A stretch of DNA of 64,000 nt, taken from positions 2,716,452 through 2,780,451 of the forward strand of contig RPFO01000156.1 of assembly GCA_009746045.1 (NCBI GenBank). Reading direction: 5' to 3'. The DNA is from Mesostigma viride. Taxonomy: Eukaryota > Streptophyta > Mesostigmatophyceae > Mesostigmatales > Mesostigmataceae. Below are positions 12,415 through 53,375 of this stretch, one piece after another (position 1 is the first letter of the stretch; each line of letters opens with the position of its first letter). A program made the translations under genes and the position numbers. A model generated the notes under the pieces. That model did no database searches. It was given only the letters and a program-made list of their open reading frames with translations, and was not told the DNA's origin.

Positions 12415-14755
12415 TGGTATCTTGAGCCCGTTGCTGGCGGCCCGGCACCTGCCGGTCATGCCCCGCCGCGCCGCCCCGGCCCGCTCTACCGCCAGGACCC
12501 CAAGGTCTTGGCCGCCCGGCACCGCCTCAAGCGTAACCGGGACCCGCTGCAGAAACCACTGCTCCAGGCCGCCCTTGTGGAGGCCTACGAGCACGCTCAG
12601 GACGCGGAGGCGGCCCAGTGCATCGCGGATGCCAAGGCCTGCCAGGCTCGCAACCAGGGCAAGGACATGTGGTACCACCTCGACCGGCTCGGCGGCCGGC
12701 GGCAGCGCACCCCGGTGGAGCACACGGGGGACGGCACGGCGCCGGTAAGCCTTGACCGCTGGTTGGCCCACAATGTTTCCTTGACCGGTGGGGCTCGCGC
12801 CCCCCCCCCGCCGCTTCACCCCGAGACGGCCGCCCGCCTCGGGGTCGCCGGACCCCCGCCGCCGCCAGCGCCCCCCTCCTCGGCCGCGGACTACCAAGTC
12901 CCCGCCTTGCAGGAGGGCTGCCTTGCCACTGACGACGTCGTCCCCCCCTTCACTTTGAAGGAATTGGACGGCGCCCTTGCTCCCCTGCGGTACGATGCGG
13001 CGGTCGGTGCCGACCACCTTTCTGCTGAGCTGCTGAAGACCCCTGATCTGGCGGTTAGGGATCTTCTGCTGGCGTTCTGCAACCGTGTCCTGCTCTCTGA
13101 CGAGCCTCCGCCTGCTGAGTGGCAGACGGCCATCCGCGTCATGCTGTGCAAGAAGGGCTCTGCTGCTGACCCCTCCGGGTAACTACCGGGGTGTCTGCCT
13201 CCAGAGCGCCGCGCTGAAGGTCTTCATGCGCATGATGCTGCACAGGCTCCGCGCCGCGCTGGACCCACACCTGGGTGAGTCTCAGATGGGTTTCCGTCGT
13301 GGTCGTAACACTACATCATGGCTGTGTTTGTCGCGCGCCGGTTGATGGAGGAGGTGCGTCGACTTCCCCCTGACAGTTTGCCGCTGGTCTTCATTTTTGT
13401 TGACTATATCAAGGCCTTTGACACGGTTCTCTGGGAGGCTCTTTGGGCCATCCTAGCTCTGGATCGGGTACCACGTGCGTTTATTGCTGCCATTCGCCGT
13501 CTGTATGAGGGTTCACAGGCAGTAGTGCGGACTGCGGAGGGCACCACTCCACCATTCCCCCTTCACCACGGGGTGTGGCAAGGTTGTGTCCTGTCCCCAC
13601 TACCTGTTCATTATTGTCGTGGATCACGTCATGCGCCGGGCACGTGCGCGCTTTACTGCTCTTTAAGGGGTTCGAGCCAGGCTTGGACATCCTTAACGTG
13701 AAAGAGCACGGCGGGGTTAGACCTGGTTACCGCCTTGCCGACCTGATTTATGCGGATGATACCACCCTCATCGAGAGCCCCGAGCACATTCAGACCTGGC
13801 TGGACTGCCTGGGCCTGGAGGCGCGGGCGGTGGGGCTGGAGATTAGTGTCAAAACTGAGGCGATCGTGATAGGAGCATCCAGTAAACCACCGCTAGCTGC
13901 CGCGCCTGCTCGACGTACGGGATGGAGGTCCCGTTCCGCGACCGCTTCAAGCTGTTGGGGAGCTGGCTTCCTGACACCGCCGACGATGTGGACACCCGCA
14001 TCGGCCTTGCCTGGGCCAAGCTCCGTTCGCTCACACCCTACTGGCGCTCGAAGGGCCTGAACGGGCACCGCAAGCGCATGCTCTTCAAGGTCCTCGTCCT
14101 CACGGTGCTCACGTATGGCGCCGAGGCGTGGACCCTCCCCCCCAAACTGGCAGCTCGGCTCGACGGCACAGTTTACAGGATGCTCCGGCAGGTCCTTAAT
14201 GTAGTTTTTTCCGAGCGTCCGTCATCAGAGTCTCTGTATCATGGCATGCCTCGTGTTTCGGACGAGATTATAGACAGCGTAGGATAGCATTTGTAGGACA
14301 CCTTGCCCGCACCAGCCAGGTCGACACCACCCTTGGTCTGGCCGGCCCCCAGCGGCTTGGACAGCCAGGGCGGCACATTCTGACCTGGCCTGGCCCCAAG
14401 GACATTCCCAAAAGGGTAGGGAAACCTGTCACGAACTACGTTCAGATGCTGCTGGACGACCTCGTGGTCCCAGCCCAGTTTGAGCACCGCATCCACTCTC
14501 TCTCCCGTCTTTGGACTGCCATGCAGGACAAGACGCGGTGGAAGAAGATTGTCAAGGCGCACACGCCCGACCCTGTGGGCAAGCCACCTCCCCCCAAGCG
14601 GAGGAGGCGTTTTGATGAGTAGTGCAGTTAGGATTTTCTAGATAGAGTTAGGATAGTTCGATCACGCGGCTTCCTCCACCCCATCCATCATGAAATATGT
14701 GCTACATGACCTCCCCACGGAGGCATGTTATAATTTAATTTAATTTAATTTAATC
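12415..14755 (+). mobile_element. LINE with degraded ORF2 reverse transcriptase and complete 3' end
   Basis: This is a 5'-truncated LINE. Coding remnants run 12508-14622 and are followed by a short 3' UTR, the hairpin 14704-14728 (ACATG-a-CCTCC, loop CCAC, GGAGG-CATGT) and an AATTT tail to about 14752. No endonuclease domain is present in the preserved part. Confidence 0.85.
12508..14622 (+). pseudogene. LINE ORF2 reverse transcriptase, frameshifted
   Basis: Non-LTR reverse transcriptase in at least five frame segments. Landmarks in order: pre-palm region (12508-13182, ELLKTPD ... WQTAIRVMLCKKG), fingers (YRGVCLQSAALKVF, GFRRGRNT), motif A (FVDYIKAFDTVLWE, about 13398-13440), motif B (HHGVWQGCVLSP, about 13565-13600), motif C with catalytic YADD (about 13750-13761), thumb (VPFRDRFKLLGSWLPDTADD), then AEAWTLPPKLAARLDG and a basic C-terminus ending KPPPPKRRRRFDE at TAG 14620-14622. 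Non-LTR elements use this enzyme for target-primed reverse transcription. Multiple indels make it inactive as read. Confidence 0.85.
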
Positions 14756-29765: not shown

Positions 29766-30886
29766 CATTAAAAATTAAATTAAATTATAACATGACTCCG
29801 TTGGGAGATCATGTAGCACATATTCCCATGGATGGATGGAGGGGGGGGACAAAGCCGCGAAACCGAACTAATCTAACTCTAAGCTAATCTAATCTAGAAA
29901 ACCCTACCTATTCTACTCAGCAAAGCGCCCCTTCCGCTTGGGGGGAGGGGGCTTGCCCACAGGGGCGGGCGTATGAGCCTGGACAATGATCTTCCACCTC
30001 CTCTTGTCCTGCATAGCAGTCCAAGCAAGAGAGAGGGAGTGAATGCGATTTTCAAACTGCGCTGGGACCACTAGGTCAGCCATCAACTGCCGTGTGGGTA
30101 GGTCATGACATGTTGGCCTACCTTCTTAGGAATGTCCTTGGGGCCAGGCCAGGTCAGGATATGCCGTCCTGGCTGGCCAAGCCGCTGGGGGCCGGCCAGA
30201 CTGAGGGCGGTGTCTACCTGGCTGGTGCGAGCAAGATGTCCTACGAATGCTATCCTACGCTGTCTAATCTCGTCCGAAATGCGAGGCATGCCCTGGTACA
30301 AAGATTCTAGATGCCTATGCGTGGAAAACCCGACAGTCAGGGCCTGACGGAGCATCCTGGTTACCGCGCCGTTTAGCTTGGCCGCCAGCGTGTCCGTGAG
30401 CGTCCATGCCTCGGCGCCATACGTGAGCACCGTGAGGACCAGGACCTTGAGGAGCATGCGCTTGCGGTGCTCGCCGATGACCTTCGAGTGCCAGTAGGTT
30501 TTCAGCGAACGATGCCGAGCCCAGGCCAGGCCGATGCGGGTGTCCACATCGGCGGCGGTGTCAGGAAGCATGCTTCCCAGCAGTTTAAAGCGATCACGAA
30601 ACGGGACCTCCGTCTAGCAGCCGTGGTAGCAGCGGGCTACTGGAAGCCCCAATCACCAGAGCCTAGCTCAGTTTTGACGCTAATCTCCAACCCCACCGCC
30701 CGCGCCTCCAAGCCCAGACAGTCCAGCCAGGTCTGAATGTGCTCGGGGCGCGCGATGAGGGTGGTGTCGTCCGCATAAATCAAGTCGGCCAGGCGGTTGA
30801 ACCCCGCCATGCTCTTTCTCGTTAAGGATGTCCAAGCCAGGCTCGAACCCCTTAAGAGCAGTAAACCGCGCACGTGCCCGGCGCAT
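29766..30886 (-). mobile_element. LINE ORF2 C-terminal fragment with complete 3' end
   Basis: On the minus strand this runs from motif C (LIYADDTTLIARPEHIQTWL, near 30790-30730) through the thumb to the basic C-terminus, then the 3' UTR, the hairpin at about 29788-29812 (ACATGA, CTCC, loop CAAC, GGAG, TCATGT) and an AATTT tail. It is cut at 30886, where another LINE tail begins. Confidence 0.8.
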
Positions 30887-31780
30887 TAATTAATTAAACA
30901 CGTGCTCCCGTTGGGGAGTCACGGAGCACCAAAGTGCTTGTAATCCCTGTGTGTGCACTACAGGAGAAAGGGCAGAGACCCCCAGTCTCCTTCATGCCAA
31001 AGGCATGCCACAGCTGCATTCGGGCGCGCTAGCTAAACGGACACGCTAACGATCCAGCAAACTGTGGGTGCAATAAGACCCATGTAAGCGTAGCATAACA
31101 AGTATAGCGTGGGCAAGTAATCTGAACATAGCCAGGGCGTAGCATGGCTATACTAGGACTAGGCTAAGGCTATGGCTGGTTCTGTACCGTGCGTTGGTGG
31201 CACGTGACTAGGTATGTTGGCACAGCTAGGCAAACATTCTAGGCATGGCTGCCTTAGCGGCAGTGACTCCAGTGGTTACAAGCTAGGGCTATTGCTGTTC
31301 TAGCCCGCTGGGGGCGTCCACATCTTGTGGTTGATCATCAGGTCCCCGCCCCTCCAGTACACCTTGGGCTTCTGGGGGTCCTGCTTATGGCGGAGGTATT
31401 CCGGCCACAGATCGCGTCGCTGCTGTTGCTGAGCGGGGGTCAGGTCGTCATCCAGCGTCCAGGTGAGGTCGTGCAACCTCTTGCGACGAGAGAGGAACCG
31501 CTGCTTATCCTCAGGGGAGGGGAAGGTGAGCAGGACTGGTGGGGGAGCCGCCTTGTCCCGTGAGTGGGGAAGGCGGTGGCACCCACGCAGTTCTACCTCA
31601 CCTACCAGGCCCATGAGGGTAAGAAGCTGGTTCTTGAGCTCGTCAGCAAGAGAGGTTGACGTCTCACCTGGCTTCTGGGGGAAGCGACGTAGCACCACTC
31701 GGCACTCGCGGCGAGCGCGGTCGGTGACCTCCCGGTGCTGGGCCTGGCGGTGGTCCTCCAGCTCCTGGAGCTTTGTGGCG
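30887..31780 (-). mobile_element. LINE (ORF1 subtype 2) 3' part with hairpin tail
   Basis: Read on the minus strand: ORF1 C-terminal half (31780-31300), a 3' UTR of about 390 bp, the hairpin at about 30900-30925 (CTCCC, loop CAAC, GGGAG) and a TTAAT tail. It is the uninterrupted paralogue of the element at 6000-10975. Confidence 0.8.
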
Positions 31781-32058
31781 ATGACGTGATCCACAACAAT
31801 AATGAACAGATATGGGGACAGGACACAACCTTGCCACACCCCGTGGTGAAGGGGGAATGGTGGGGTGGTGCCTTCCGCAGTCCGCACTACTGCCTGTGAG
31901 CCCTCATACAGTCGGCGAATGGCAGCAATAAACGCAGGTGGCACTCGATCCAGAGCTAGGATGGCCCAAAGAGCCTCCCAGAGGACCGTGTCAAAGGCCT
32001 TGATATAGTCAACAAAAATGAAGACCAGCGGCAAACTGTCAGGGGGAAGGCGACGCAC
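31300..32058 (-). CDS. Chimeric ORF: LINE reverse transcriptase palm fused to ORF1 C-terminus
   Basis: One open frame of 252 codons. The N-terminal 90 or so residues are reverse transcriptase motifs A and B (FIFVDYIKAFDTVLWEALWA ... LHHGVWQGCVLSPYLF). After VVDHV the frame switches to ORF1 subtype 2 (IATKLQELEDHRQAQHRE ... PPPVLLTFPSPEDK ... LDDDLTPAQQQQRRDLWP ... VYWRGGDLMINH). The motif C YADD is absent, so it cannot be an active polymerase. The junction (about 31781-31785) falls at a CAT/CATC microhomology, as expected for template switching. Whether it is expressed is unknown. Confidence 0.75.
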   Translation of the reverse strand: MRRLPPDSLPLVFIFVDYIKAFDTVLWEALWAILALDRVPPAFIAAIRRLYEGSQAVVRTAEGTTPPFPLHHGVWQGCVLSPYLFIIVVDHVIATKLQELEDHRQAQHREVTDRARRECRVVLRRFPQKPGETSTSLADELKNQLLTLMGLVGEVELRGCHRLPHSRDKAAPPPVLLTFPSPEDKQRFLSRRKRLHDLTWTLDDDLTPAQQQQRRDLWPEYLRHKQDPQKPKVYWRGGDLMINHKMWTPPAG

Positions 32059-32930
32059 CAGTCCTCCATCAACCGGCGCGCGACAAACACAGCCATGACA
32101 GTGTTACGACCACAACGGAATTAAACCCATCTGAGACTCACCCAGGTGTGGGTCCAGCGCGGCGCGGAGCCTGTGCAGCATCATGCGCATGAAGACCTTC
32201 AGCGCGGCGCTCTGGAGGCAGACACCCCGGTAGTTACCCGGCGGGGTCAGCAGCAGAGCCCTTCTTGCACAGCATGACGCGGATGGCCGTCTGCCACTCA
32301 GCAGGCGGAGGCTCGTCAGAAAGCAGGACACGGTTGCAGAACGCCAGCAGAAGATCCCTAACCGCCGGAGCAGGGGTCTTCAGCAGCTCAGCAGAAAGGT
32401 GGTCGGCACCGACCGCCGCATCGTACCACAGGCGAGCAAGCCGGTGCCGTCCAACTCCTTCAAAGTGAAGGGGGGGACGACGTCGTCGGTGGCAAGGCAG
32501 CCCTCCTGCAAGGCGCGGGGACTTGGTACTAGTTCGCGGCCGAGGAGGGTGGCGCAGGCGGCGGCGGGGGTCCGGCAACACCGAGACGGGCGGCCTTCTC
32601 GGGGTGAAGCGGCGGGGGAGGGGCGCGAGCCCCACCTGTCAAGGAAACATTGTGGGCCGGCCAACCAGCGGTCAAGGCTGACCGGCGCCGTGCCGTCCCC
32701 CGTGTGCTCCACCGGGGTGCGCTGCCGCCGGCCGCCGAGCCGGTCGAGGTGGTACCACATGTCCTTGCCCTGGTTGCGAGCTTGGCAGGCCTTGGCATCT
32801 GCGATGCACTGGGCCGCCTCTGCGTCCTGAGCATGGGCGTAGGCCTCCCCAAGGGCGGCCAGGAGCACCGGTTTCAGCAATGGGTCCCGGTTACGCTTGT
32901 GGAGCATGCATGTACATAGTAAGTGCACTT
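32059..32930 (-). pseudogene. LINE ORF2 pre-palm region, frameshifted
   Basis: Minus-strand remnants in three frames match 12508-13345 of the plus-strand copy (MWYHLDRLGGRRQR, ELLKTPAPAVRDLL, WQTAIRVMLCKKG, YRGVCLQSAALKVF). They are continuous with the chimeric ORF at 31300-32058. Confidence 0.8.
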
Positions 32931-40144: not shown

Positions 40145-40345
40145 TTCGTCCGAGGGTGGTAAAAAGCATCCGAGGCGTAAATTACGAGGTGGTAAGTTAT
40201 ACTCCGCTTTTACTCTTACCGTTTGCATACGAGTTCGGATCTTTCTCGTAAGCTACGAGTTAGATCCGAGGTAAGATCCGACGTCGTAATTTACGAGGTA
40301 GTAATTTACGAGGTAGTAATTTACGAGGTAGTAATTTACGACACA
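40145..40345 (+). repeat. TTTACGAGGTAGTAA iterons, locus 1
   Basis: Three perfect 15-bp units (about 40290-40340) sit in a 200-bp zone rich in TACGAG and TCCGAG variants. The same iteron occurs at 43812-43840 and 53265-53375, always in the same orientation. Confidence 0.8.
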
Positions 40346-43490: not shown

Positions 43491-44006
43491 AAATAGGGCT
43501 CCGAATGCCCTAGAACTTTGTACAAGGTCAGAACAACTCGTATTCGTCACCCTTGCAAAGTTACAGCATAATCTGATATCAATTATTGTTGCTATGCAAG
43601 TGCAAGTGGTTTAGGTGGCCAGTTTTGGCCTTGGATCTGGAGTTAACTTAAGCAGGGAATACCACGTAAACTTAACATTTTGACTCAACTACTCCACCAC
43701 TAGCCAGACACATCCCGGGGAGTCGTGGGATCCAATCCTAGGTCAATCCAACCATAAACTTGCCATGGGCCAGAATTTATGTAAAAAAAAGGCCATTTCA
43801 AGGTGTTGTGGAGGTAGTAATGTACGAGGTAGTAATGTCGCGTCTGCGTACCACAATCTCCGGCGCTACCATGGCGGCTGGCCATGCTCAGCTTTGGTAA
43901 AACCCAAATGAGCTGAGCTGACGTGCCTGCCTTAACTGCATGCCCGGTGGGGTGGGCGAGGACCTGTCCCATGATTCCCCCCCTCGCTGGCTCTCATCAT
44001 GGCTCC

Positions 44007-44339
44007 TCACATGGCCAGCGACCGTGCCAACACCACAGCAGCTAAGGAAATGGTGACGCTACTGGTTGCGAAGCGGGCAGCGACACAAACTGGGCAAAAC
44101 CACTGGCCCGCTGGCACGGTGGTGAGCGCTGGCTGCAAGCAGTGCATGTGCCACCCACAATTACAGTGATCACACAGCAACATGGTATCCCCCTGGTCTA
44201 CGCGATGGCAAACCTGACACTGTGCGTCCTTGACCCGCCTGGCCGTGTGCGGGGCGAGGTCAGGCAATAAGTTGGGCAACGAACACGGACTGAGGTTGCT
44301 TACGTTATCGGTGGTGCGACTGCCGTCGACGCCCTCCAA
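44007..44339 (-). CDS. C-terminal PHD finger of the retrotransposon polyprotein
   Basis: The frame overlaps the end of pol by about 40 bases. It begins with a linker typical of the region after integrase (LEGVDGSRTTDNVSNLSPC), then a canonical C4HC3 PHD finger: CQVC, MLLCDHC, GWHMHC, QWFCPVC. No in-frame ATG precedes it. One extra T in the TTT run near 44342 would make it continuous with pol, so it is probably the C-terminal domain of the same polyprotein. PHD fingers bind histone H3 tails. By analogy with integrase chromodomains it could steer integration, which is inference. Confidence 0.8.
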   Translation of the reverse strand: MEGVDGSRTTDNVSNLSPCSLPNLLPDLAPHTARRVKDAQCQVCHRVDQGDTMLLCDHCNCGWHMHCLQPALTTVPAGQWFCPVCVAARFATSSVTISLAAVVLARSLAM

Positions 44340-47300
44340 ATGGCGACCCCAGATGGCTTGATGGCGACGATCCGCAAGATGGTCGGCCCCGCAGTCACGT
44401 CAAGAGTGTCGGTCAGCTGCGTGCGGAGAAAGACGAACTGCCCCGGACGAAAATGCAGCTGACGGGCCATGTAAGCGCCCCCCCGGCGCTGAGCGTAGCG
44501 CAGGGTATCTCGGTGCTGGGCGATGAACAAGTTGTTCATGGCGATGGGCATAACCTTGCGGAAAGTAGCCGCCCGTGCGGTCACCTCAGCCAGAAACTGA
44601 CTGGCGTTGTCAAACGCCATAGGGGTGGGGTGTGCACTCTGCGCCTCCGTGGGGAGCAAGGGTGCGCGCCCAAACAACAGGAAATACGGGGAGAAACAGG
44701 CGAGCGACTCCTGGGGTGACATTCGGTAACCCATGGCTATCCACGCCAGTTCACGATCCCACATAGTGAATGATGCTGACTGCAGGCTCCACTTGCGCAA
44801 AGCCTGCTTGACAGTCTGCACCAATCTCTCAGCCAAACCATTGGCCTGAGGATGCTCGCGAGAAGTGCGACGGTGATCAATGAGACATGCATCCAACAAT
44901 TCCTGAAATTCCCCACGAAACTCCCCGCCCTGGTCGGTGACCACCTCCGCGGGGGCGCCAAACCTGGCGATGATGTCGGCGAAGTGCTTGGCGGTGGTGG
45001 CGGCCTGCTTGTCAGCAATGGGGATGAGCTCGACCCACTTGCTAAAACTTTCGACACACACCATGACATACTTGTGGCCATCTGCACTTTCATCAAAGGG
45101 CCCACACAGGTCTACGTGCCAGCGGTAGAAGAGCCCTCTGATGGGTAGGCTCATCAATTCTTTCGCATCGTGGTCCACATTGAACCTGGCCTTCACCCGG
45201 GCACACTGCGCGCAGCTAGCGACGACCTGCGCGACTGTGGCACGCATGCCGTTCCACCAATAAGAGGCGCGCACTAGCGCCAAAGTGCGGTTACCACCCA
45301 GGTGGCCATACCGCTCATGGGCTTGCTGGACGATGGCGACCCGCTTGTGAGGCGGCGGCACCACCACTTTGCGCTTGCCGATCATTTTGTGGAGGACCCC
45401 GGCATCCCACGAGTAGGTGACCGCCCTATGTTGCACCCTATTCAACTCAGCGTCACGCTGGGCTGAGGACCAATCAACAGGGGTTGGGGTGAGAGCTATC
45501 CCTTGGACCTGCTCCAACACACGCCCATCGAGCCACACATCACCCATGTTGCATTCCACTGTGAGATGGCCAACCAACACCACCTGGAGTGCTAGGTATC
45601 GTGCCAAGGTATTGTCAATGTCAAAGGACGGAGAATTACCTTCCTCCAACGCGAGGAGGCCAGCGGCAGGGGTGAAGGGAGAAGGGTGAACTGCATTGCA
45701 GCTTGCCGCAAAGTCTGCGACTGTATACTCGACTGCGCGCCAGTCTGCCTCGGCGTCGGCGTCAGCGAAGCCTGCAGCATTAACAAAAACCACAGACCCA
45801 GGCGAGCTCTCGGCCCCTAGGGCCCGCGCACCAGTGTTGTCAACAGTGGTTGGTAGAGCATACCTGGACAGGACGTCCGCGTTGGAGTGATCCACACCTG
45901 GCCGATGGACGATTGTCAGGTGGTACTCCTGAATGATCATTGCCCACCGGGCCAGCTTACCCGTGAGTTTGTCGCTGGTCATCAACCACAATAAGGGCTG
46001 GTGATCAGTGACAAGTGTGAACACCCGCCCAAAGAGATATGGCCTGAAGTGCTTGATGGCCCACACAACGGCTAACGCTTCCCCCTCGTAGGAAGAGTAC
46101 CGACTCTCGGCAGAGTTGTTACTCCGACTAGCGTACGCGATAACATGCTCGCGCCCCGCATCGTCCTTTTGTGCTAGCACAGCCCCTAGGCCTACCTTGG
46201 ACCAATCGGTGTAAAGAATGAAGGGCAGAGCATAGTCGGGGGCGCGTAGGATAGGAGCGGCAGTCAGTTCCTGTTTGATGGTATCGATGGCTCGCTGCTG
46301 AGCCGGACCCCACGCCCAGACATTGCCCTTCTTCAACAACTCAGTCAGGGGTTTGACTTTGGTGCTGAAATTCTGAATATATCCTCGATAATAGCCAGCT
46401 AGCCCGAGATACGCGCGCACCCCCGAGATGTCGATGGGCACTGCGGCGTTGCTGATGGCTTCCACTTTGGCTGCCTCAGGGGTCCGGCCACCTGGTACAA
46501 TCTGATGGCCAAGAAACCCTATGGTCTGTTGGGCGAACTTGCACTTTTCAGGGTGCAGCCGCAGGTTGGCCTTATCTAGGGCGATCCGAACCTGATCGAG
46601 GTGAGCTAAGTGCTGGTCAAACGTCTCGCTAAAGACAATGACATCGTCTATGTAGCAGGCTGCAAATGGCAACCCTGCCAGCACCTGGTCCATGGCACGT
46701 TGGAACACCGCACTAGCGTTGCGATGTCCGAATGGCATGCGAACCCACTCGTACAGACGGGTCCCACCCCAAAAGGCCAGCTTGCGCTGATCTGCCTCTA
46801 CGACCTTGATCTGATGGAAGCCGCTACGCAAATCTAGCGACGACACATACTTGACCTGGGGAGATATTTTATCCAAAACATCATCGACCCGAGGCATGGG
46901 GTACCTATCAACAGGAGTGTGCGCGTTCAGCTGACGCAGGTCAGTGGCCATGCGCATACCTGTCCACTCGCCTGTGATGGTATCCTTCTTGGGTGCGACC
47001 ACCGTGGCAGCTGCATAACTGGAGGATGAAGCGCGGATGATCCCAGCTGCCTCTAGCTCTCGACAGTTAGCATCTACGAATTCCAGCTCAGCCAAGCTCA
47101 GCCTATGCTGCCGCCTGAATAAGGGCTGATCCGTATCTAGTGGGACCCCCATGCAGCCCCCGTTGTAGCACCCTAGTTCTTCACTGCTGAAAGCGAATAC
47201 TGAGCGTGCAGAATGCAACCAGTGCTCCATAGCCTTGCGTTGCGTGGCGGTGAGGTGCTCACCTATGGCCCATATGTGAGAGGCAGCAGGATCTGCGACT

Positions 47301-48076
47301 GCGGCACTCCTACTGTCGAGACAAGGCCCCCGGACAGCGGCATCGTGGAAAAGGGAAAATGCGGCTACACCGGGTGTGACGCTCACCTGCTGAATGGCAC
47401 GGACTGCGCGACCGACCGATTGCTGCAGGGTGGGCGCTCCAGCGAACACCGTGCTGGACAACAAGGACGTCATGAGGATAACGCTCCATAGTTGAAGCAG
47501 CCGCGATCTCCATGGCGACCCAGTGCCGCCGGACGCTGTTGGCCGGACACCAGCCGCGTGGGCACTGACAGGCGGTGGCGGTGTGGGGATATCTCCCCCA
47601 CCCTGGCGCACTTGCATTGCGGCCCGCAGAACATACCCAACCTGGAAGGCTGACATGGCTTGCCCAACGAGAGACCACCTAGTGGCCTCTAAAACCCCCT
47701 CAGCGGCGGACGCCCCCACATGGAACCCCATGCTCACCTCCCGAAACTCAGCGGGCGGCTGCACCAACAAACCCGTACCGGTGTCCCATACCAAACCCTT
47801 GCCCCGGTCCCTGTAGGCCGATGACCCCTGGTAACTAACCAAGGTGGGAAGAGCGCACATAGGCTTACCTACGTGATTGACGGGTGCGTAAGGGTGCCGA
47901 TCGGCGACATCTACCGCTGCGTGACCAAATGTGGTGGCAGCGCCACCTCCGCGGGCATGCCGTCGTGCTGTCGTGTGATCGCATCTACCACTGCCTGGAT
48001 GGTGGTGGTGAGTGCAAGGTTGGTCCAGAATGCGCGGTACCTGTGGGTGAGCCCGCCCAATCCTGCATTGTCGCAC
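44300..48076 (-). CDS. pol: Pol polyprotein: methyltransferase C-terminus, reverse transcriptase, RNase H, integrase (1258 aa)
   Basis: Residues about 60-155 are the methyltransferase end (motifs IX-X). The reverse transcriptase follows: FVDANCRELEAAGIIRAS, YVSSLDLRSGFHQIKV (motif A), PFGHRNASAVFQRAMD, and catalytic YIDD at residues 475-478. RNase H: FILYTDWSKVGLGAVLAQ (Asp near 623), SSYEGEALAVVWAIKHF, VTDHQPLLWL. Integrase: HHCC zinc site (HERYGHLGGNRTL ... CAQCARV), then the catalytic triad D (WHVDLCGPF, near 986), D (VTDQGGEF, near 1046) and E (GLAERLV, near 1079). All key residues are present, so this part looks functional. The stop at 44300 falls just where the frame passes to the PHD ORF. 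Confidence 0.93.
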   Translation of the reverse strand: MRQCRIGRAHPQVPRILDQPCTHHHHPGSGRCDHTTARRHARGGGAATTFGHAAVDVADRHPYAPVNHVGKPMCALPTLVSYQGSSAYRDRGKGLVWDTGTGLLVQPPAEFREVSMGFHVGASAAEGVLEATRWSLVGQAMSAFQVGYVLRAAMQVRQGGGDIPTPPPPVSAHAAGVRPTASGGTGSPWRSRLLQLWSVILMTSLLSSTVFAGAPTLQQSVGRAVRAIQQVSVTPGVAAFSLFHDAAVRGPCLDSRSAAVADPAASHIWAIGEHLTATQRKAMEHWLHSARSVFAFSSEELGCYNGGCMGVPLDTDQPLFRRQHRLSLAELEFVDANCRELEAAGIIRASSSSYAAATVVAPKKDTITGEWTGMRMATDLRQLNAHTPVDRYPMPRVDDVLDKISPQVKYVSSLDLRSGFHQIKVVEADQRKLAFWGGTRLYEWVRMPFGHRNASAVFQRAMDQVLAGLPFAACYIDDVIVFSETFDQHLAHLDQVRIALDKANLRLHPEKCKFAQQTIGFLGHQIVPGGRTPEAAKVEAISNAAVPIDISGVRAYLGLAGYYRGYIQNFSTKVKPLTELLKKGNVWAWGPAQQRAIDTIKQELTAAPILRAPDYALPFILYTDWSKVGLGAVLAQKDDAGREHVIAYASRSNNSAESRYSSYEGEALAVVWAIKHFRPYLFGRVFTLVTDHQPLLWLMTSDKLTGKLARWAMIIQEYHLTIVHRPGVDHSNADVLSRYALPTTVDNTGARALGAESSPGSVVFVNAAGFADADAEADWRAVEYTVADFAASCNAVHPSPFTPAAGLLALEEGNSPSFDIDNTLARYLALQVVLVGHLTVECNMGDVWLDGRVLEQVQGIALTPTPVDWSSAQRDAELNRVQHRAVTYSWDAGVLHKMIGKRKVVVPPPHKRVAIVQQAHERYGHLGGNRTLALVRASYWWNGMRATVAQVVASCAQCARVKARFNVDHDAKELMSLPIRGLFYRWHVDLCGPFDESADGHKYVMVCVESFSKWVELIPIADKQAATTAKHFADIIARFGAPAEVVTDQGGEFRGEFQELLDACLIDHRRTSREHPQANGLAERLVQTVKQALRKWSLQSASFTMWDRELAWIAMGYRMSPQESLACFSPYFLLFGRAPLLPTEAQSAHPTPMAFDNASQFLAEVTARAATFRKVMPIAMNNLFIAQHRDTLRYAQRRGGAYMARQLHFRPGQFVFLRTQLTDTLDVTAGPTILRIVAIKPSGVAIWRASTAVAPPIT

Positions 48077-48573
48077 GTGACTGGGCCCCTAAGATGTCCA
48101 CGATCTGGGCCCAGTCCTTCCTCACTACCTCGTGAGGGCTGTCGTCGGCCACCACGTTCTCAAAAAGATACGCTAGTGGCTGGTCCTGCAGCTGCTGCAA
48201 GAGTCCAACGACTCGAAGCAGATCCCAAAACAACCCGCTCCTAGGATCCGCAAGCCCGCGTCCTACGCCGGCCTGACTCAACCCTTGACATTCCCAGCCC
48301 GCGAGGACGAGGTCTATCCTCTTGTGCCGCCTCAAAAGGCCTCGCACATGAACCTCCCCAATGCACGGATATCCTGAGGGCACTCCCCAAACGGATCTGT
48401 CCACGCAGACGGAGGAACTGAGATGGATACAGGGCAGACAGCTGGGCACAGTGATGCCTATACACTGCCCGAGCGGTAGGAGACGGCTCTACGGCGATCA
48501 ACGTGTGGCACGTACCGCCTGCAGCGAGAAAGCCAGCCAGCCCCCCTCCCATCCCAGCAAACAATTCTAGCAA
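47610..48573 (-). pseudogene. Cytosine-5 DNA methyltransferase domain inside retrotransposon pol
   Basis: The motifs of a C5-MTase appear in the correct order: motif I LELFAGMGGGLAGFLAAGG (48571-48515), motif II IAVEPSPTARAVYRHH, a QDIRALG segment, motif IV LVLAGWECQGLSQAG with the catalytic Cys (about 48300-48280), DPRSGLFWDLLRVV, motif VI LFENVV (about 48165), motif VIII-like THRYRAFWTNLA, then LPTLVSYQGSSAYR and motifs IX-X FREVSMGF ... RWSLVGQAMSAFQVGYVL (in frame with the reverse transcriptase). The residue before the catalytic Cys is Glu, not the usual Pro. The domain is spread over several frames. Each switch corresponds to a one-base difference, mostly in T or G runs, so it may be decayed or mis-assembled. 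Confidence 0.85.
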
Positions 48574-50041
48574 TACAACCCCTCGGACAAGACCCGCGAC
48601 TCTGCCACAACATCGGCACAGAAGTTACCTTCGTTGTCGCGACAGCCACTTGGGACTGCGATTGCCGCGGGAGATGAGAGAGTTGTTGCTGCCGCACCGC
48701 GTTGGTGACGTGCTGACGCAAAAGGGCCTGCCGCGCTTGCGGCTGCTGTCGCGCCGCCCACGTGCTGTGCAATGAGGCCCGTCCCACCAGCGCTGTTGGG
48801 ATGCACGGCCGATGCTTATCACGCACAGCCCCCCCAGCTGCCGTGACCTCCCCCATCCGTACCTCCACCACCGCGTCGTGCGAGCCAGCCTCGACCCGGT
48901 TGACCGTCGAGACACGCACTGCCCCAGTGTCCGAGCTGTAGCAGCTCACCGGGATGCTTGCTTGGCGCATGGCGTCACCGTCTCTGTCAACGATGTACAC
49001 CGCGCGGCCTTCCCACATGCGTACCTCGAGCCGCATGGGAAACATGACCTCCATGCCGACCAGCACGTCATACGATGACTGCTCGGTCACAAGGGCATTC
49101 ACAGGGATGCAGGCCATGTCGGATGGCCTGAGCGGGTTGAGGATGACCATTACCTGGACCGCAGTCATGGCAAAGGGTTTAGCGGCAGGGCCCTGCCAGC
49201 CCGCCACGGACACATGACTGTCCCGCAGCCCGCCATTCTCCCTGGTTAGGTTGAGCAACTGGGCCAGCCGAGCACTGATAACGAGTGGCTGGGCCCCGCT
49301 GTCCAGTTTCACGACCAATTCATGGTCAGTACTGTAGACCACGTTGCTCAGGGGCTCCCCGTGCCCCTGCGCCTGAAACGCCATTGCTGGCTCGCCATCC
49401 GGATATGAGGTGACAGTGGGTGCCCTAGGCACTACGCACGCCCGCTGCGCGTTGTCCAAGACACCATGAGCGACATGACCCACGATTACCGAAGCCGATG
49501 CAGGGCGATGCCCGACAAATGTGGCTGTCTCAGCGTTGTGCAACCTACGGGCGTCCATTGTGTCAGCGTACCGCTGTACCTCTGACGCATGCGACCCGAG
49601 CACCTCCACGGCCCGCTGACCGAACCACTCGACCACTTGCCGGGGAGTGTATGCAGGCGTGTCCACGACCGATGGCATAGGGTATAATGGCAACAACCTG
49701 CGCCGCTGCTCTGCCCCAGCAGGATTGTCGTGTTCCAGGGTGGAGCCGGTCCGAGCGGGAGCCATGCGAAAGGACTGAGGCAACTGCCCCACAGTCTCAC
49801 TTGGCTGCCCCACCTGAAACGACGGTGGTGCACGTGCTTGCTTCCCGCGCGCGCCAACTGCGTGGATGTCCAACGCCATCACGTCGGCTGGCCGCCAGAA
49901 GTCCTCGTCCCTGTATTGAACCTGCGATCCCCCATCCTCCCTTTCACGCCCCCCGCCTCGCCCGTCGGCTGAATGATGACCACCCCCGCGTCCACCTTCT
50001 TGTCCTCCACGTCCGCAAAGTGCACCCCCGGCGCTGGGCAC
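48458..50041 (-). CDS. pro: Retroviral-type aspartic protease region
   Basis: The domain is seen in the middle of the ORF: HELVVKLDSGAQPLVISARL with the active-site DSG, then SYDVLVGMEVMFPMRLEVR, matching the flap and ILG-type end of retropepsins. It would cleave the element's polyproteins. Flanking parts are low-complexity. The ORF overlaps gag at its start (G5 run near the frame change) and the methyltransferase at its end. Expression by frameshifting, or one continuous frame broken by homopolymer errors, are both possible. Confidence 0.75.
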   Translation of the reverse strand: MPSAGGALCGRGGQEGGRGGGHHSADGRGGGREREDGGSQVQYRDEDFWRPADVMALDIHAVGARGKQARAPPSFQVGQPSETVGQLPQSFRMAPARTGSTLEHDNPAGAEQRRRLLPLYPMPSVVDTPAYTPRQVVEWFGQRAVEVLGSHASEVQRYADTMDARRLHNAETATFVGHRPASASVIVGHVAHGVLDNAQRACVVPRAPTVTSYPDGEPAMAFQAQGHGEPLSNVVYSTDHELVVKLDSGAQPLVISARLAQLLNLTRENGGLRDSHVSVAGWQGPAAKPFAMTAVQVMVILNPLRPSDMACIPVNALVTEQSSYDVLVGMEVMFPMRLEVRMWEGRAVYIVDRDGDAMRQASIPVSCYSSDTGAVRVSTVNRVEAGSHDAVVEVRMGEVTAAGGAVRDKHRPCIPTALVGRASLHSTWAARQQPQARQALLRQHVTNAVRQQQLSHLPRQSQSQVAVATTKVTSVPMLWQSRGSCPRGCIARIVCWDGRGAGWLSRCRRYVPHVDRRRAVSYRSGSV

Positions 50042-51750
50042 TGCCCCGCCAGATGGGTGCGGACCGTTGCCGGGTGTGACTTCTTACACGCCTTGGGACA
50101 ATCACGTTTGATGTGCCCATCCTGACCGCACAGGAAGCAGCCCGATTTGCGCGCATCCGTCCTACCCGTCTGTGAGGACGTGCCCCCCCCAGCTCGCGTC
50201 GGCGGAGCGGCAGCGTCCTTGTTGCCGCCAGCGGCGTTACCCTGGGTTGCATCATGCGATGAGGCGTTGCGAGACCCCCCTTGGTTCCTGCTAGCACCGT
50301 GGCCGCCTTGCGGGCGCGCTTGTCTTGTGGCAGACGACTCACCCGACTTGGCCTTGGTCAGCGCGTCGACCTTGGCCTGCAGCTCGGCCACCACCGTGCT
50401 TACCGAGATCCGGCCTTGCGCGTGTCGTCGCATCATGGCCCTGACCTCAATGCACAGTGACCGCAATCGCCACGGCTGGCCGTTGGGCGGCGTGGGCAGC
50501 TCCATCTCCTTGGAGCCTAGCGCTTGCAGCCATTTCTGACACGCCAGCTTTTCGGACCAGTCCTCCACTTCGCCGGCGAACTCCATGAGGCGCTCGTAAG
50601 ATTGCTCCGGGGTTTCACCCTCGGCTATCTTGAAACTGCGCCACTCACGCTCTGCCTTGATGGTCTCCACCGGGTATTCCTGGCGAAGGAGGCCCCACAG
50701 TTCCTCGGCAGGGTCGACACCATACATGATGTTGTCATAGTCGGGCTGGCCACGCCCGTCGAAGCCGAACCACACGTCCGTGTGACGCGTGTACAGCGAG
50801 ACCTCTCTCCACTGCTCCACCAGCCTAGCCACTCGCCTCAGCGTAAGGCCGTGAAAGAAGAAATGCATGTTGTTCATCACAAACTCATGCATTACAGCGC
50901 CTTGCGTAGTCATGTATTGCAGATCAATCCATGACTTGTACGCGTTGTAGGCCTGCGCCAGCGTGGCCAGATTGCCGGTTGTGGAGAACTTCTCGCGCAT
51001 GTCCACCCGTGGTAGGGTGGGCATCTTCGCGCCTTCAGGTATGAGGCGCACCCTTTGCGGGTACTGCACCCCATCGGCATCCTCCGGCGGTCGCTGAGCT
51101 GCGCGTCCCTGCGCCAGCGTGCTTGGGCGTGCTGCCTCCCGTACTCGGAAAGCCAGCGGCGTGGTTATGTCCTCCATGGGCGGAATGCGCCCGATTGGCA
51201 CACTTGACCACCGTGCAGTCGACCCGCCGGTCAGCGCCCCACCGCCTCGCCCAAACGGAATTGAGACCCCGCCTGGCAGCATGCGTCCTGGTGCACCCCT
51301 GCGTGGGTCCATCGCGCGCGCCAGCCCTGCCCCGTTCTCCTCGTGCAATCCGTCTCGCGCTTGATCGAAAGGCAGGCGCCTGGGCGCCAGCGTATACTCG
51401 CCCCGTGGCTGACCATCCGCCTCACCAAGCAAGTCGTGTTGGGTTAGCGACCCAGCCAAAACCCCCGGTTCCATCGGAGCCCTTCCCGCCGCATTACCTG
51501 AGGTTGGCGGCTGGTCCCGCTCCCTCGGCTCCGCGGCAACACCACTTGGGCCCGGCATCGATGCCTGCCCGTCCCATGGTGTGGACTGCAGATGACGACC
51601 CTCTACGGCCACCAATCTGTCGGTCACTTCCCGCATCTGCAGCGCCAGTTGCTGCTGCAACTGTTGCGACTGTTGCTGCATCTGCGCTTGCATCTGCGCG
51701 AACAGCGCCACCATACTCAGCGGCGCTTCTTGGTCGCGACTCTCACCCAC
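49879..51750 (-). CDS. gag: Gag polyprotein with CCHC zinc knuckle
   Basis: Structural protein of the virus-like particle. An N-terminal Gln-rich coiled coil (MVALFAQMQAQMQQQSQQL) is followed by a long variable region and a retrotransposon-gag domain (about 230-430, FVMNNMHFFFHGLTLRRV, EEWRSFKI-like, AEGETPEQSYERLMEF), then one CCHC knuckle (CFLCGQDGHIKRDC). This frame opens with a GTG. A better start is the ATG at 51835-51837 (MADANRADANTSAPGSNGG) in a frame one base off, so a one-base discrepancy probably lies near 51750. The next ORF overlaps by 163 bases in another frame. Confidence 0.85.
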   Translation of the reverse strand: MGESRDQEAPLSMVALFAQMQAQMQQQSQQLQQQLALQMREVTDRLVAVEGRHLQSTPWDGQASMPGPSGVAAEPRERDQPPTSGNAAGRAPMEPGVLAGSLTQHDLLGEADGQPRGEYTLAPRRLPFDQARDGLHEENGAGLARAMDPRRGAPGRMLPGGVSIPFGRGGGALTGGSTARWSSVPIGRIPPMEDITTPLAFRVREAARPSTLAQGRAAQRPPEDADGVQYPQRVRLIPEGAKMPTLPRVDMREKFSTTGNLATLAQAYNAYKSWIDLQYMTTQGAVMHEFVMNNMHFFFHGLTLRRVARLVEQWREVSLYTRHTDVWFGFDGRGQPDYDNIMYGVDPAEELWGLLRQEYPVETIKAEREWRSFKIAEGETPEQSYERLMEFAGEVEDWSEKLACQKWLQALGSKEMELPTPPNGQPWRLRSLCIEVRAMMRRHAQGRISVSTVVAELQAKVDALTKAKSGESSATRQARPQGGHGASRNQGGSRNASSHDATQGNAAGGNKDAAAPPTRAGGGTSSQTGRTDARKSGCFLCGQDGHIKRDCPKACKKSHPATVRTHLAGQCPAPGVHFADVEDKKVDAGVVIIQPTGEAGGVKGRMGDRRFNTGTRTSGGQPT

Positions 51751-51880
51751 TGCGGGTACGGCGGGAGGAATCCGCCATTCGACCCCGGAGCGGACGTGTT
51801 GGCATCTGCTCTATTTGCATCCGCCATGGCTCGAGTCTGCGCTCGCGTCAGTGGCATGCACCAGCTGACCGATGGGCAAA

Positions 51881-52940
51881 ACAAGAACCAACAAGCCTAG
51901 GTTAGCCTGCCAGAAAAAGACAAGAGCCAGCAAATTCTGGCTAGTTCTATTTTCTTAAAATCTGTCTCAAGACACTTCCTTTACAAACTGTCAGCCAGGC
52001 CGTTCCCTGTACTGCTGATGGTTGATAAACACTAAAGCCAACGTCTTGGCTTCGAACAGGAGGAAGCAGACTACCGGGTAGTCTCTTCGAGTAACGAAAG
52101 GAGGTTCTCAGCCGAGGACAAGGAATTGTCCCTCGTGCCTGATGACCACCTTAATGCTTTTTCCTCCCCTGATATAGAACAATGTTTTCACAACACACAC
52201 TTTGCACAGTCTGATGATGAAGCCGCACATGCGGAATTTATTGAGAAAGTTAATACAATTACAACACGTTGATAGTCTCAATATCGATGCACTCCATGCT
52301 CACGAGCCCGCAGTTAGGCAGCGCTCCATGACATGCTACCGGCCTTGCTCCCAAGGAAAGGGAGAAACACGAAGGCCACTAACGAGAGACTCGAAGAGAC
52401 TACACGCTACGTGAGAGTCCTCTTCGACTATGAACCAAACCATTCGTCATGCCACACGCATGACACACGCCACACTTGTCAGTCCAGCCAGGAATGCCAA
52501 AACTATCTTGCTGCCTGAACCATGCAAACAGAAACCGCATTCCAGTTGCCGTCCTGGCTTACTACCACACATGCCAACAAAAACAGGAAGGCATCCCGAC
52601 AAATCTAAATTGCTACCCTGTTGCCGATCTCATCTCCTAGAGGCTCCGGCATTTCTGTCCCTGGGAATGTCCGGCATTTAGTCACGACCACCAAGGTCGA
52701 AGCATAATATCCTTCAAACAATCTGCACGCTCACACCTTGCGTGTGAGTGGCCCAGCAAACATTGCTTCTAATCTTTCCTTTCTAGAAGAAATCCCTTTG
52801 TAGGGCTGCCAGCGATTTCGCATTCATTCCAGCGATCTGGCTCCGCACCGCAAATTGTCCTTTTCCATTTTCTGTCCAGTCCTCATAACGTTGACCCGCT
52901 ATTCTACACCACAAAGACACCTGGCCTGTCAATAGCCTCG
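51881..52940. other. Region upstream of gag, no LTR recognised
   Basis: This should contain the 5' LTR if the retrotransposon is complete, but no stretch matching the downstream side was found by eye. No convincing genes were seen. Confidence 0.35.
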
Positions 52941-53021
52941 GCGCTGTTGAAGTCCAGCAGTCCAGCTCCAGCTCCAGCTCCAGCTCCAGCTCCAGCTCCA
53001 GCTGTCCACTATAACTCGCGT

Positions 53022-53150
53022 ATGATCCTCTCGACGCTGCGCACTTGTGCTGCCGTCCGCTCAAGTGCGTCAGTGCTGCGCGCCCAGCCGTGCCTGGCCC
53101 GGCGCGCGCGCACGTGCACTTTCGTCCGCTCTTATGCTGCAAGTGCTAGT
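53022..53150 (+). CDS. Possible first exon encoding a mitochondrial presequence
   Basis: From ATG 53022 the frame reads MILSTLRTCAAVRSSASVLR and continues QPCLARRARTCTFVRSYAAS: Arg/Ser/Ala-rich, no acidic residue, ending in an RSYAA-type cleavage context, all typical of mitochondrial targeting signals. It is preceded by a (CAGCTC)n stretch. No downstream exon that completes a known protein was found before iterons begin at 53265. The gene may be truncated, or this may be chance. Confidence 0.35.
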
Positions 53151-53264
53151 GTCCCCCCCCCGGTCACTAGCCTTTGTCGAAAATGCGCAGAAAACAAATT
53201 CCTTGCGCACGTCACCGGTATTGTGCATAGTGGGTGCCCGGATGACATAGCTCGCGTCCGTGAC

Positions 53265-53375
53265 AGTAATGTACGAGGTAGTAATGTACGAGGTAGTAAT
53301 TTACGAGGTAGTAAGGTACGAGGTAGTAATTTGCGAGGTAGTAATTTACGAGTTGGTAATTTACGATCCCGGTAC
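53265..53375 (+). repeat. TTTACGAGGTAGTAA iterons, locus 3
   Basis: Six to seven 15-bp units (GTACGAGGTAGTAAT and variants) in tandem, the same family as 40290-40340 and 43812-43840. Confidence 0.85.

Follow-up and report, generated by a model that had tools for sequence, protein, structure and literature searches.

We analysed a 64,000-nucleotide stretch of the Mesostigma viride genome (contig RPFO01000156.1, positions 2,716,452 to 2,780,451; hereafter the window), in which a retroelement with Ty3/Gypsy-type domains carries a C5-cytosine methyltransferase (MTase) within its Pol polyprotein. The inserted element spans 43836-53265 on the minus strand, with termini TGTCACGG...CGCGACA, and its ends match the limits of homology to another copy, L010. 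TTAC, as read on the minus strand, flanks it on each side as a 4-bp target-site duplication (53266-53269 on the 5' side of the element and 43832-43835 on the 3' side).

The MTase domain lies at 47610-48573. The original prediction, made from the sequence alone, had placed C5-MTase motifs in order between the protease and the reverse transcriptase (RT), and this was borne out for motifs I (LELFAGMGGG, 48541-48570), IV (WECQGLS, 48276-48296), VI (YLFENV, 48153-48170), VIII (HRYRAFWTN, 48019-48045), IX (EVSMGF, 47723-47740) and X (GQAMSA, 47648-47665), all on the minus strand and numbered by what we take to be the general C5-MTase scheme. They stand in this order with the catalytic Cys, Glu and Arg expected of a C5-MTase; a further motif, PTLVSYQGS, lies at 47822-47848 (minus strand). 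The protease signature LDSGA (49292-49306) is found upstream of the domain and the RT signature YIDD (46643-46654) downstream. In the window copy, motifs I and VIII fall in a first frame, IV and VI in a second, and IX and X in a third. Because the motifs are spread over three frames, no single conventional frame encodes the enzyme, and the window MTase is broken. The final motifs, IX and X, do share the long pol frame, as predicted; this frame measures 1262 residues from stop to stop, compared with the 1258 given earlier. The Pfam profile PF00145 (DNA_methylase) matched the fragment bearing motifs IV to VI over its cut-off (E-value 2.1e-8) and the motif I fragment below it (0.071), and gave 9.9e-11 on the unbroken domain of P0001, a copy from subfamily A (see below).

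Around the MTase, all on the minus strand, the Pol order is protease, RT, RNase H and DDE integrase. We assigned the protease, in an open frame at 48458-50083, from its signature together with an Asp_protease_2 match under the Pfam cut-off (3.8e-4). The RT, RNase H and integrase occupy one open frame (44300-48088), with matches over the cut-off (RVT_1 8.9e-28, RT_RNaseH 2.7e-38, Integrase_H2C2 3.3e-17 and rve 9.7e-12). A PHD finger forms the pol C-terminus (44085-44219; PHD 4.8e-10), in a frame that differs from the integrase frame in the window copy. Between the MTase and the RT lies a hydrophobic segment, WSVILMTSLLSS (47453-47488); a similar segment passes the hydropathy cut in subfamily B, not in subfamily A. 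The gag open frame (49879-51810; 643 residues from stop to stop) contains a CCHC zinc knuckle at 50098-50139 (zf-CCHC 7.2e-6), and the purine-rich tract AGGGGGGGA (43976-43984) is a likely plus-strand primer, with a similar tract immediately preceding repeat B of copy L011. The 5' region and gag (50080-53265) are of subfamily-A type, with 95-98% DNA identity to L010, whereas the alignable pol parts are 71-76% identical to L010. The window copy is therefore a mosaic element with a joint near 50080.

The element sits within or next to a 15-base tandem array of the GTAATTTACGAGGTA type, with repeats at 53265-53366 and 43811-43836 at the insertion site and again at 40241-40341, about 3.5 kb further on. 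Elsewhere in the window, positions 12801-14746 and 29772-32623 are inverted stretches that are 82-94% alike. Both contain TGTCGCGCGCCGGT (at 13329 and 32085), a sequence similar to the beginning of the subfamily B repeats. An open frame at 31300-32103 (minus strand) has an RVT_1 match (6.5e-9) and belongs to another retroelement; BLASTP gave no match between it and the element's pol at 1e-3.

Intact copies and codon constraint

The genome contains three retroelement subfamilies with an MTase in the same Pol position: A (represented by L010), B (L011) and C (the window copy and L043). L010 encodes one 2074-aa frame, in which the MTase, RT, RNase H, integrase and PHD finger exceed the Pfam cut-offs; its CCHC knuckle falls just under the cut-off, and its DSGA protease signature was seen by eye. 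L043, whose MTase frame is unbroken, shares 99.2% DNA identity with the window copy over 2446 bases. All copy counts from the genome searches are lower bounds. The protein search, in which 122 of 540 candidates were scored, found at least 99 subfamily A copies, all covering residues 1-328 without a stop and 39 of them within the 2074-aa frame. It also found at least 23 subfamily C copies: 12 span residues 1-329 without a stop, one spans 1-319, three have stops and seven are partial. A DNA search with the window MTase stretch gave 40 scored matches among 318 candidates, all full length and 98-100% identical. A comparison of 20 subfamily A copies with L010 revealed four with zero substitutions over 3.3 kb and two more with none over 1.8 kb. 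Since six of the 20 copies show no substitution, subfamily A has been amplified recently. Gaps are the sole difference between several near-identical copies of the element.

Differences among the subfamilies over 323 MTase codons lie mainly at third positions (80/69/193 for A-B, 77/50/190 for A-C and 100/69/204 for B-C). The proportion of nonsynonymous differences (pN) was 0.23, 0.18 and 0.25, respectively, and that of synonymous differences (pS) was 0.73-0.78, near or past saturation; the single computable ratio of the corresponding rates (dN/dS) was 0.10. For the 206 codons that lead from the MTase into the RT, pN was 0.17-0.19. As judged from these sequence comparisons, the MTase is constrained about as tightly as the stretch leading into the RT, and the constraint among A, B and C extends through the whole domain. 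The share of CpG transitions among substitutions (8/13 for the window copy versus L043, 62/200 in A and 78/276 in B) had no composition control and was not used.

Read alone, the frame-broken window copy looks like debris, as would be expected if a host MTase gene had inserted by chance into one copy. That explanation is barely credible given that the domain occupies the same place in three subfamilies, with at least 111 full-length open copies and codon constraint, and that the protease-MTase order recurs in the related proteins P0007 and P0065. We rule out host-gene insertion or debris on the shared position, the open copies and the constraint. The same observations bear out the expectation that the MTase would be intact and constrained along its length in other copies, rather than missing from them or without a conserved frame.

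PF00145 gave 127 matches in the genome, with unrelated MTases among them. A second repeated set of C5-MTases (337-378 aa, with a canonical PCQ) occurs at L001 and L002 (G000:C1468 and C35) and on other, mostly short contigs. It adjoins unknown genes, ten places score equally, and it is not DNMT3-like in the tree; it has the appearance of a further family of mobile or viral elements.

Active site and nearest relatives

To our knowledge, the Pro-Cys dipeptide of motif IV is invariant in C5-MTases. The Glu that precedes the catalytic Cys here (WECQ) had been flagged as unusual, and rightly so: WECQ occurs in 41 of the 67 related proteins found and is absent from the forward frames of 116 viral and prokaryote loci (36 and 80, respectively), where the sole xECQ, in L096, falls outside the match. 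The replacement of Pro by Glu characterises the lineage and does not reflect damage to the window copy. The Cys, the motif VI Glu and HRxR were conserved in all five rows of our first alignment, with P0007 having EMV instead of ENV.

The nearest sequence profiles were those of DNMT3, and the predicted fold of a metagenome relative, P0011, was nearest DNMT3. The 50 structure entries listed comprised DNMT3 and bacterial C5-MTases; DNMT1 and CMT rows were absent there, which rules out nothing. The listed DNMT3 rows showed 23-27% identity, and PWWP and ADD were not among the Pfam matches. On the evidence of sequence profiles and the P0011 model, the retrotransposon MTase is of DNMT3 type. Cells use enzymes of this kind to lay down new silencing marks.

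We built trees from 26 retrotransposon proteins, omitting shorter fragments among P0009-P0050 and the Mesostigma models P0014, P0036, P0064 and P0068. Eight of the 13 proteins P0051-P0063 were used, together with the 24 best-scoring of the 116 viral and prokaryote loci in a quick tree; a careful tree included six outsiders and DNMT3A. As the original prediction had anticipated, the MTase clustered with those of other retrotransposons: all 26 lay on one side of a branch (support 99 in the quick tree and 100/99 in the careful tree), and all 24 viral and prokaryote loci fell outside. A lone partial DNMT3 row was the nearest row from outside the retrotransposons in the quick tree (support 91); in the careful tree, which was left unrooted, it sits with the other outsiders. 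Within Pol, the MTase comes after the protease in Mesostigma, P0007 and P0065, and after RNase H in P0005, P0006, P0008, P0018 and P0031. All five RNase-H-linked MTases group at 99/97 within a set of 17 rows, the other 12 of which have no RNase H or protease signature. The split between Glu-Cys and Pro-Cys retrotransposon MTases was weakly supported (74/89), and a single clade of the protease-linked types was neither favoured nor firmly rejected by the approximately unbiased test (p-AU 0.08).

Relatives occur in Closterium (P0042, Closterium sp. NIES-54), metagenomes and Chlamydomonas. Two Mesostigma proteins from EukProt (Mesvir1) match the subfamilies: P0064 aligns with 64% of the subfamily A query at 99% identity, and P0014, compared by eye, comes close to a match with subfamily B. 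A third EukProt protein, P0067 (159 aa), is filed under the dinoflagellate Prorocentrum lima and is 99% identical to A over 24% of the query; sample contamination is the probable cause, and transfer a less likely one. P0008 (CHLRE_09g398141v5), a 2354-residue pol from Chlamydomonas reinhardtii, is 39% identical to A from RT to integrase. P0006, an MTase-bearing Gypsy-type polyprotein, has two 2A-like motifs, DVERNPGP and DVEPHPGP, at residues 852 and 927.

As candidates for a viral or bacterial donor, we scanned viral contigs and prokaryote species genomes, collections that hold no eukaryote genomes. No WECQ enzyme was present in the 36 viral-contig loci or in the 80 listed of 241 confirmed species-genome loci, and we rejected such a donor. 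One prokaryote match, L149 (66% identity over 35 residues), proved to be a bacterial MTase: its motif reads WPCQ, and the genes around it are bacterial.

Element ends and insertion mode

All four copies with both ends read are flanked by 4-bp duplications: TTAC for the window copy, AACC for C224, TCTC for C777 and AGCC for C1690, whose far end lies past an interruption. The window copy and C224 have the order A-coding-B, with no direct repeat pair at their ends. By contrast, C777 has the order A-coding-B-GC-A-B, in which repeat A is approximately 1132 bases and repeat B approximately 136 bases, the first A being interrupted by a nested insertion; C1690 follows this order too, its final B being interrupted. 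No complete long terminal repeat (LTR) at each end, as expected of Ty3/Gypsy elements, was found in the window copy or C224, and the repeats of C777 and C1690 are split; we therefore call the element Gypsy-type by its domains, and not a standard LTR element.

Repeat B begins right after a purine-rich tract. In C777, the inner junction of the two repeats connects the end of A with the beginning of B. The 41-kb contig C111 (G000:C111, L016) contains two B-GC-A joints 9450 bases apart, which form a head-to-tail unit. On the simplest reading, the true LTR would be B-GC-A, and the integrase would cut circles carrying one or two LTRs at GACA-GC-TGTC, and not at the LTR ends, to insert them. The element thus probably inserts from circles that are cut within the repeat at the joint GCGACA-GC-TGTC, a perfect palindrome in subfamily B. 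Contigs C105, C133, C140, C178 and C217 (37-41 kb) also carry copies of the element; C111 and contigs like it are either tandem arrays or derived from circles.

Proposed function and known systems

Hosts silence transposons by cytosine methylation. We consider it fairly probable that the DNMT3-type MTase in the Pol of this Ty3/Gypsy-type element would methylate the element's own new DNA, a reading favoured by the conservation of the domain, its DNMT3 likeness, its place in Pol and the analogy with the dinoflagellate element SymbioDIRS-Dnmt3. The MTase would be released from Pol along with the other Pol parts, reside in the particle or pre-integration complex, and methylate newly made linear or circular element DNA de novo, before or at insertion. 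The target would most likely be CG: 5-methylcytosine occurs across the Mesostigma viride genome, and CG is its most abundant context according to the portions consulted of the genome paper (PMC6947507). A new copy would then arrive already marked, which could give protection or allow quiet persistence in a CG-methylated genome, and the PHD finger may help to choose chromatin. The original prediction, supported in part, had further suggested that the MTase could write methylation on the element or its target and so couple transposition to the element's silencing state, a role that is hypothetical.

Several observations weigh against self-methylation. The fold evidence comes from P0011, which is 38% identical over 95% of the query, and the solved-structure signal was weak with the single Mesostigma sequence (best 0.0013). 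The window copy is broken, as noted, and 11 of the 23 listed subfamily C copies are not full-length and open. Moreover, 27 of the 40 DNA matches have a span length out of phase with the open copy L043, although at least two of them (C351 and C887) were nonetheless open through the domain in the protein search. Retrotransposons with no DNA methyltransferase (DNMT) also transpose in the hosts studied, according to the parts available to us of PMC5890265. Finally, most family members have Glu instead of Pro next to the catalytic Cys, and the MTase-derived domain of P0008 reaches 145 bits against the domain profile despite having lost the Cys, ENV and motif VIII Arg residues. Because Chlamydomonas retains this dead homologue, an MTase domain can persist without catalysis.

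These last two points support the main rival to self-methylation, namely that the domain was retained as a structural spacer within Pol or because it binds nucleic acid (DNA or RNA) or a partner, with little or no methyl transfer. We regard this as unlikely, though well worth keeping in view: the Cys, the motif VI Glu and HRxR are conserved in every row of the first alignment, and the constraint among A, B and C covers the whole domain. An active enzyme that acts on RNA, either genomic RNA or a primer tRNA, is less probable again. The accessible text of PMC5890265 suggests such a substrate for the dinoflagellate element SymbioLINE-Dnmt, which gave no DNA methylation in yeast, a result that also counts against self-methylation; by contrast, the best profile and fold relatives of the Mesostigma enzyme are DNMT3 DNA methyltransferases. 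Alternatively, the MTase might work in trans, on the genome of the host, and help the element by silencing its competitors or genes of host defence. Open, near-identical copies are numerous, so expression could be high, and host CG methylation is widespread (PMC6947507, in part); however, Klebsormidium nitens, which has a similar element, is described in the sections seen of PMC5890265 as having a land-plant-like methylome, and we hold action in trans to be highly improbable.

Returning to self-methylation, we tentatively propose, as possible rather than probable, an old and distinct green-plant retrotransposon lineage with its own Glu-Cys DNMT3-type enzyme, a motif unseen elsewhere in the collections searched. 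The enzyme would have been taken up once, moved within Pol between the protease-RT and RNase H-integrase positions, kept active in Mesostigma and deprived of catalysis in Chlamydomonas; it would mark element DNA as circles before the DDE integrase inserts them at the repeat joint. With a young, high-copy element that keeps a DNMT3-type MTase, the question of why a transposon would methylate itself becomes open to experiment. Mesostigma, as a culturable unicellular alga that has many near-identical open copies and a published methylome, suits this question well, and the catalytically dead homologue in Chlamydomonas provides a natural contrast. If the enzyme is active, its Glu-Cys motif would alter what counts as fixed in C5-methyltransferase catalysis.

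The original prediction held that MTase-bearing retrotransposons are known but rare, in agreement with PMC5890265 as far as consulted, which describes retrotransposon-borne DNMTs in dinoflagellates and Klebsormidium. A partly consulted paper, PMC12344493, repeats these reports and names the families LTR Copia and DIRS, and the portion seen of PMC11244446 contains no further such element. Our full-text search, which covered open-licence papers with supplements aside, found no published Mesostigma retrotransposon DNMT, and none is named in the parts consulted of PMC6947507; among the papers listed for retrotransposon-borne DNMTs in general, PMC5890265 was the sole one.

Since KnitGypsy-Dnmt3 of K. 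nitens already carries a retrotransposon-borne DNMT3, the Mesostigma element belongs to a known kind. In the accessible parts of PMC5890265, KnitGypsy-Dnmt3 is intronless and under purifying selection, with a Dnmt3-type MTase in the Pol frame of an LTR Gypsy element; a figure legend there gives Gypsy domains with DIRS-like repeats in the order A-coding-B-A-B. The two elements are thus alike in having a Dnmt3-type MTase in a Gypsy Pol, and the DIRS-like repeat order is as in C777 and C1690. They differ in host, and the same parts of the paper do not mention for KnitGypsy-Dnmt3 the PHD finger and Glu-Cys motif of the Mesostigma element; no K. nitens protein was among the matches of our protein searches. 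SymbioDIRS-Dnmt3 and SymbioLINE-Dnmt also carry a DNMT, that of the DIRS element being Dnmt3-type and in the Pol frame, but they use a tyrosine recombinase and an endonuclease, respectively (PMC5890265, in part), whereas the Mesostigma element has a DDE-type integrase and 4-bp duplications.

Among cellular enzymes with solved structures, DNMT3A and DNMT3B are closest by profile and, for P0011, by fold; the element enzyme differs from them in its Glu instead of Pro before the catalytic Cys. The Chlamydomonas Gypsy-type pol P0008 shares the C-terminal PHD finger and an MTase-derived domain, but there the domain is positioned after RNase H and before integrase, with its catalytic residues lost. 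It may be compared with REM1, a PHD-bearing element. Taken together, these comparisons suggest that the Mesostigma element is set apart by its Glu-Cys motif, its C-terminal PHD finger and its permuted repeats, the last of which point to insertion from circles.
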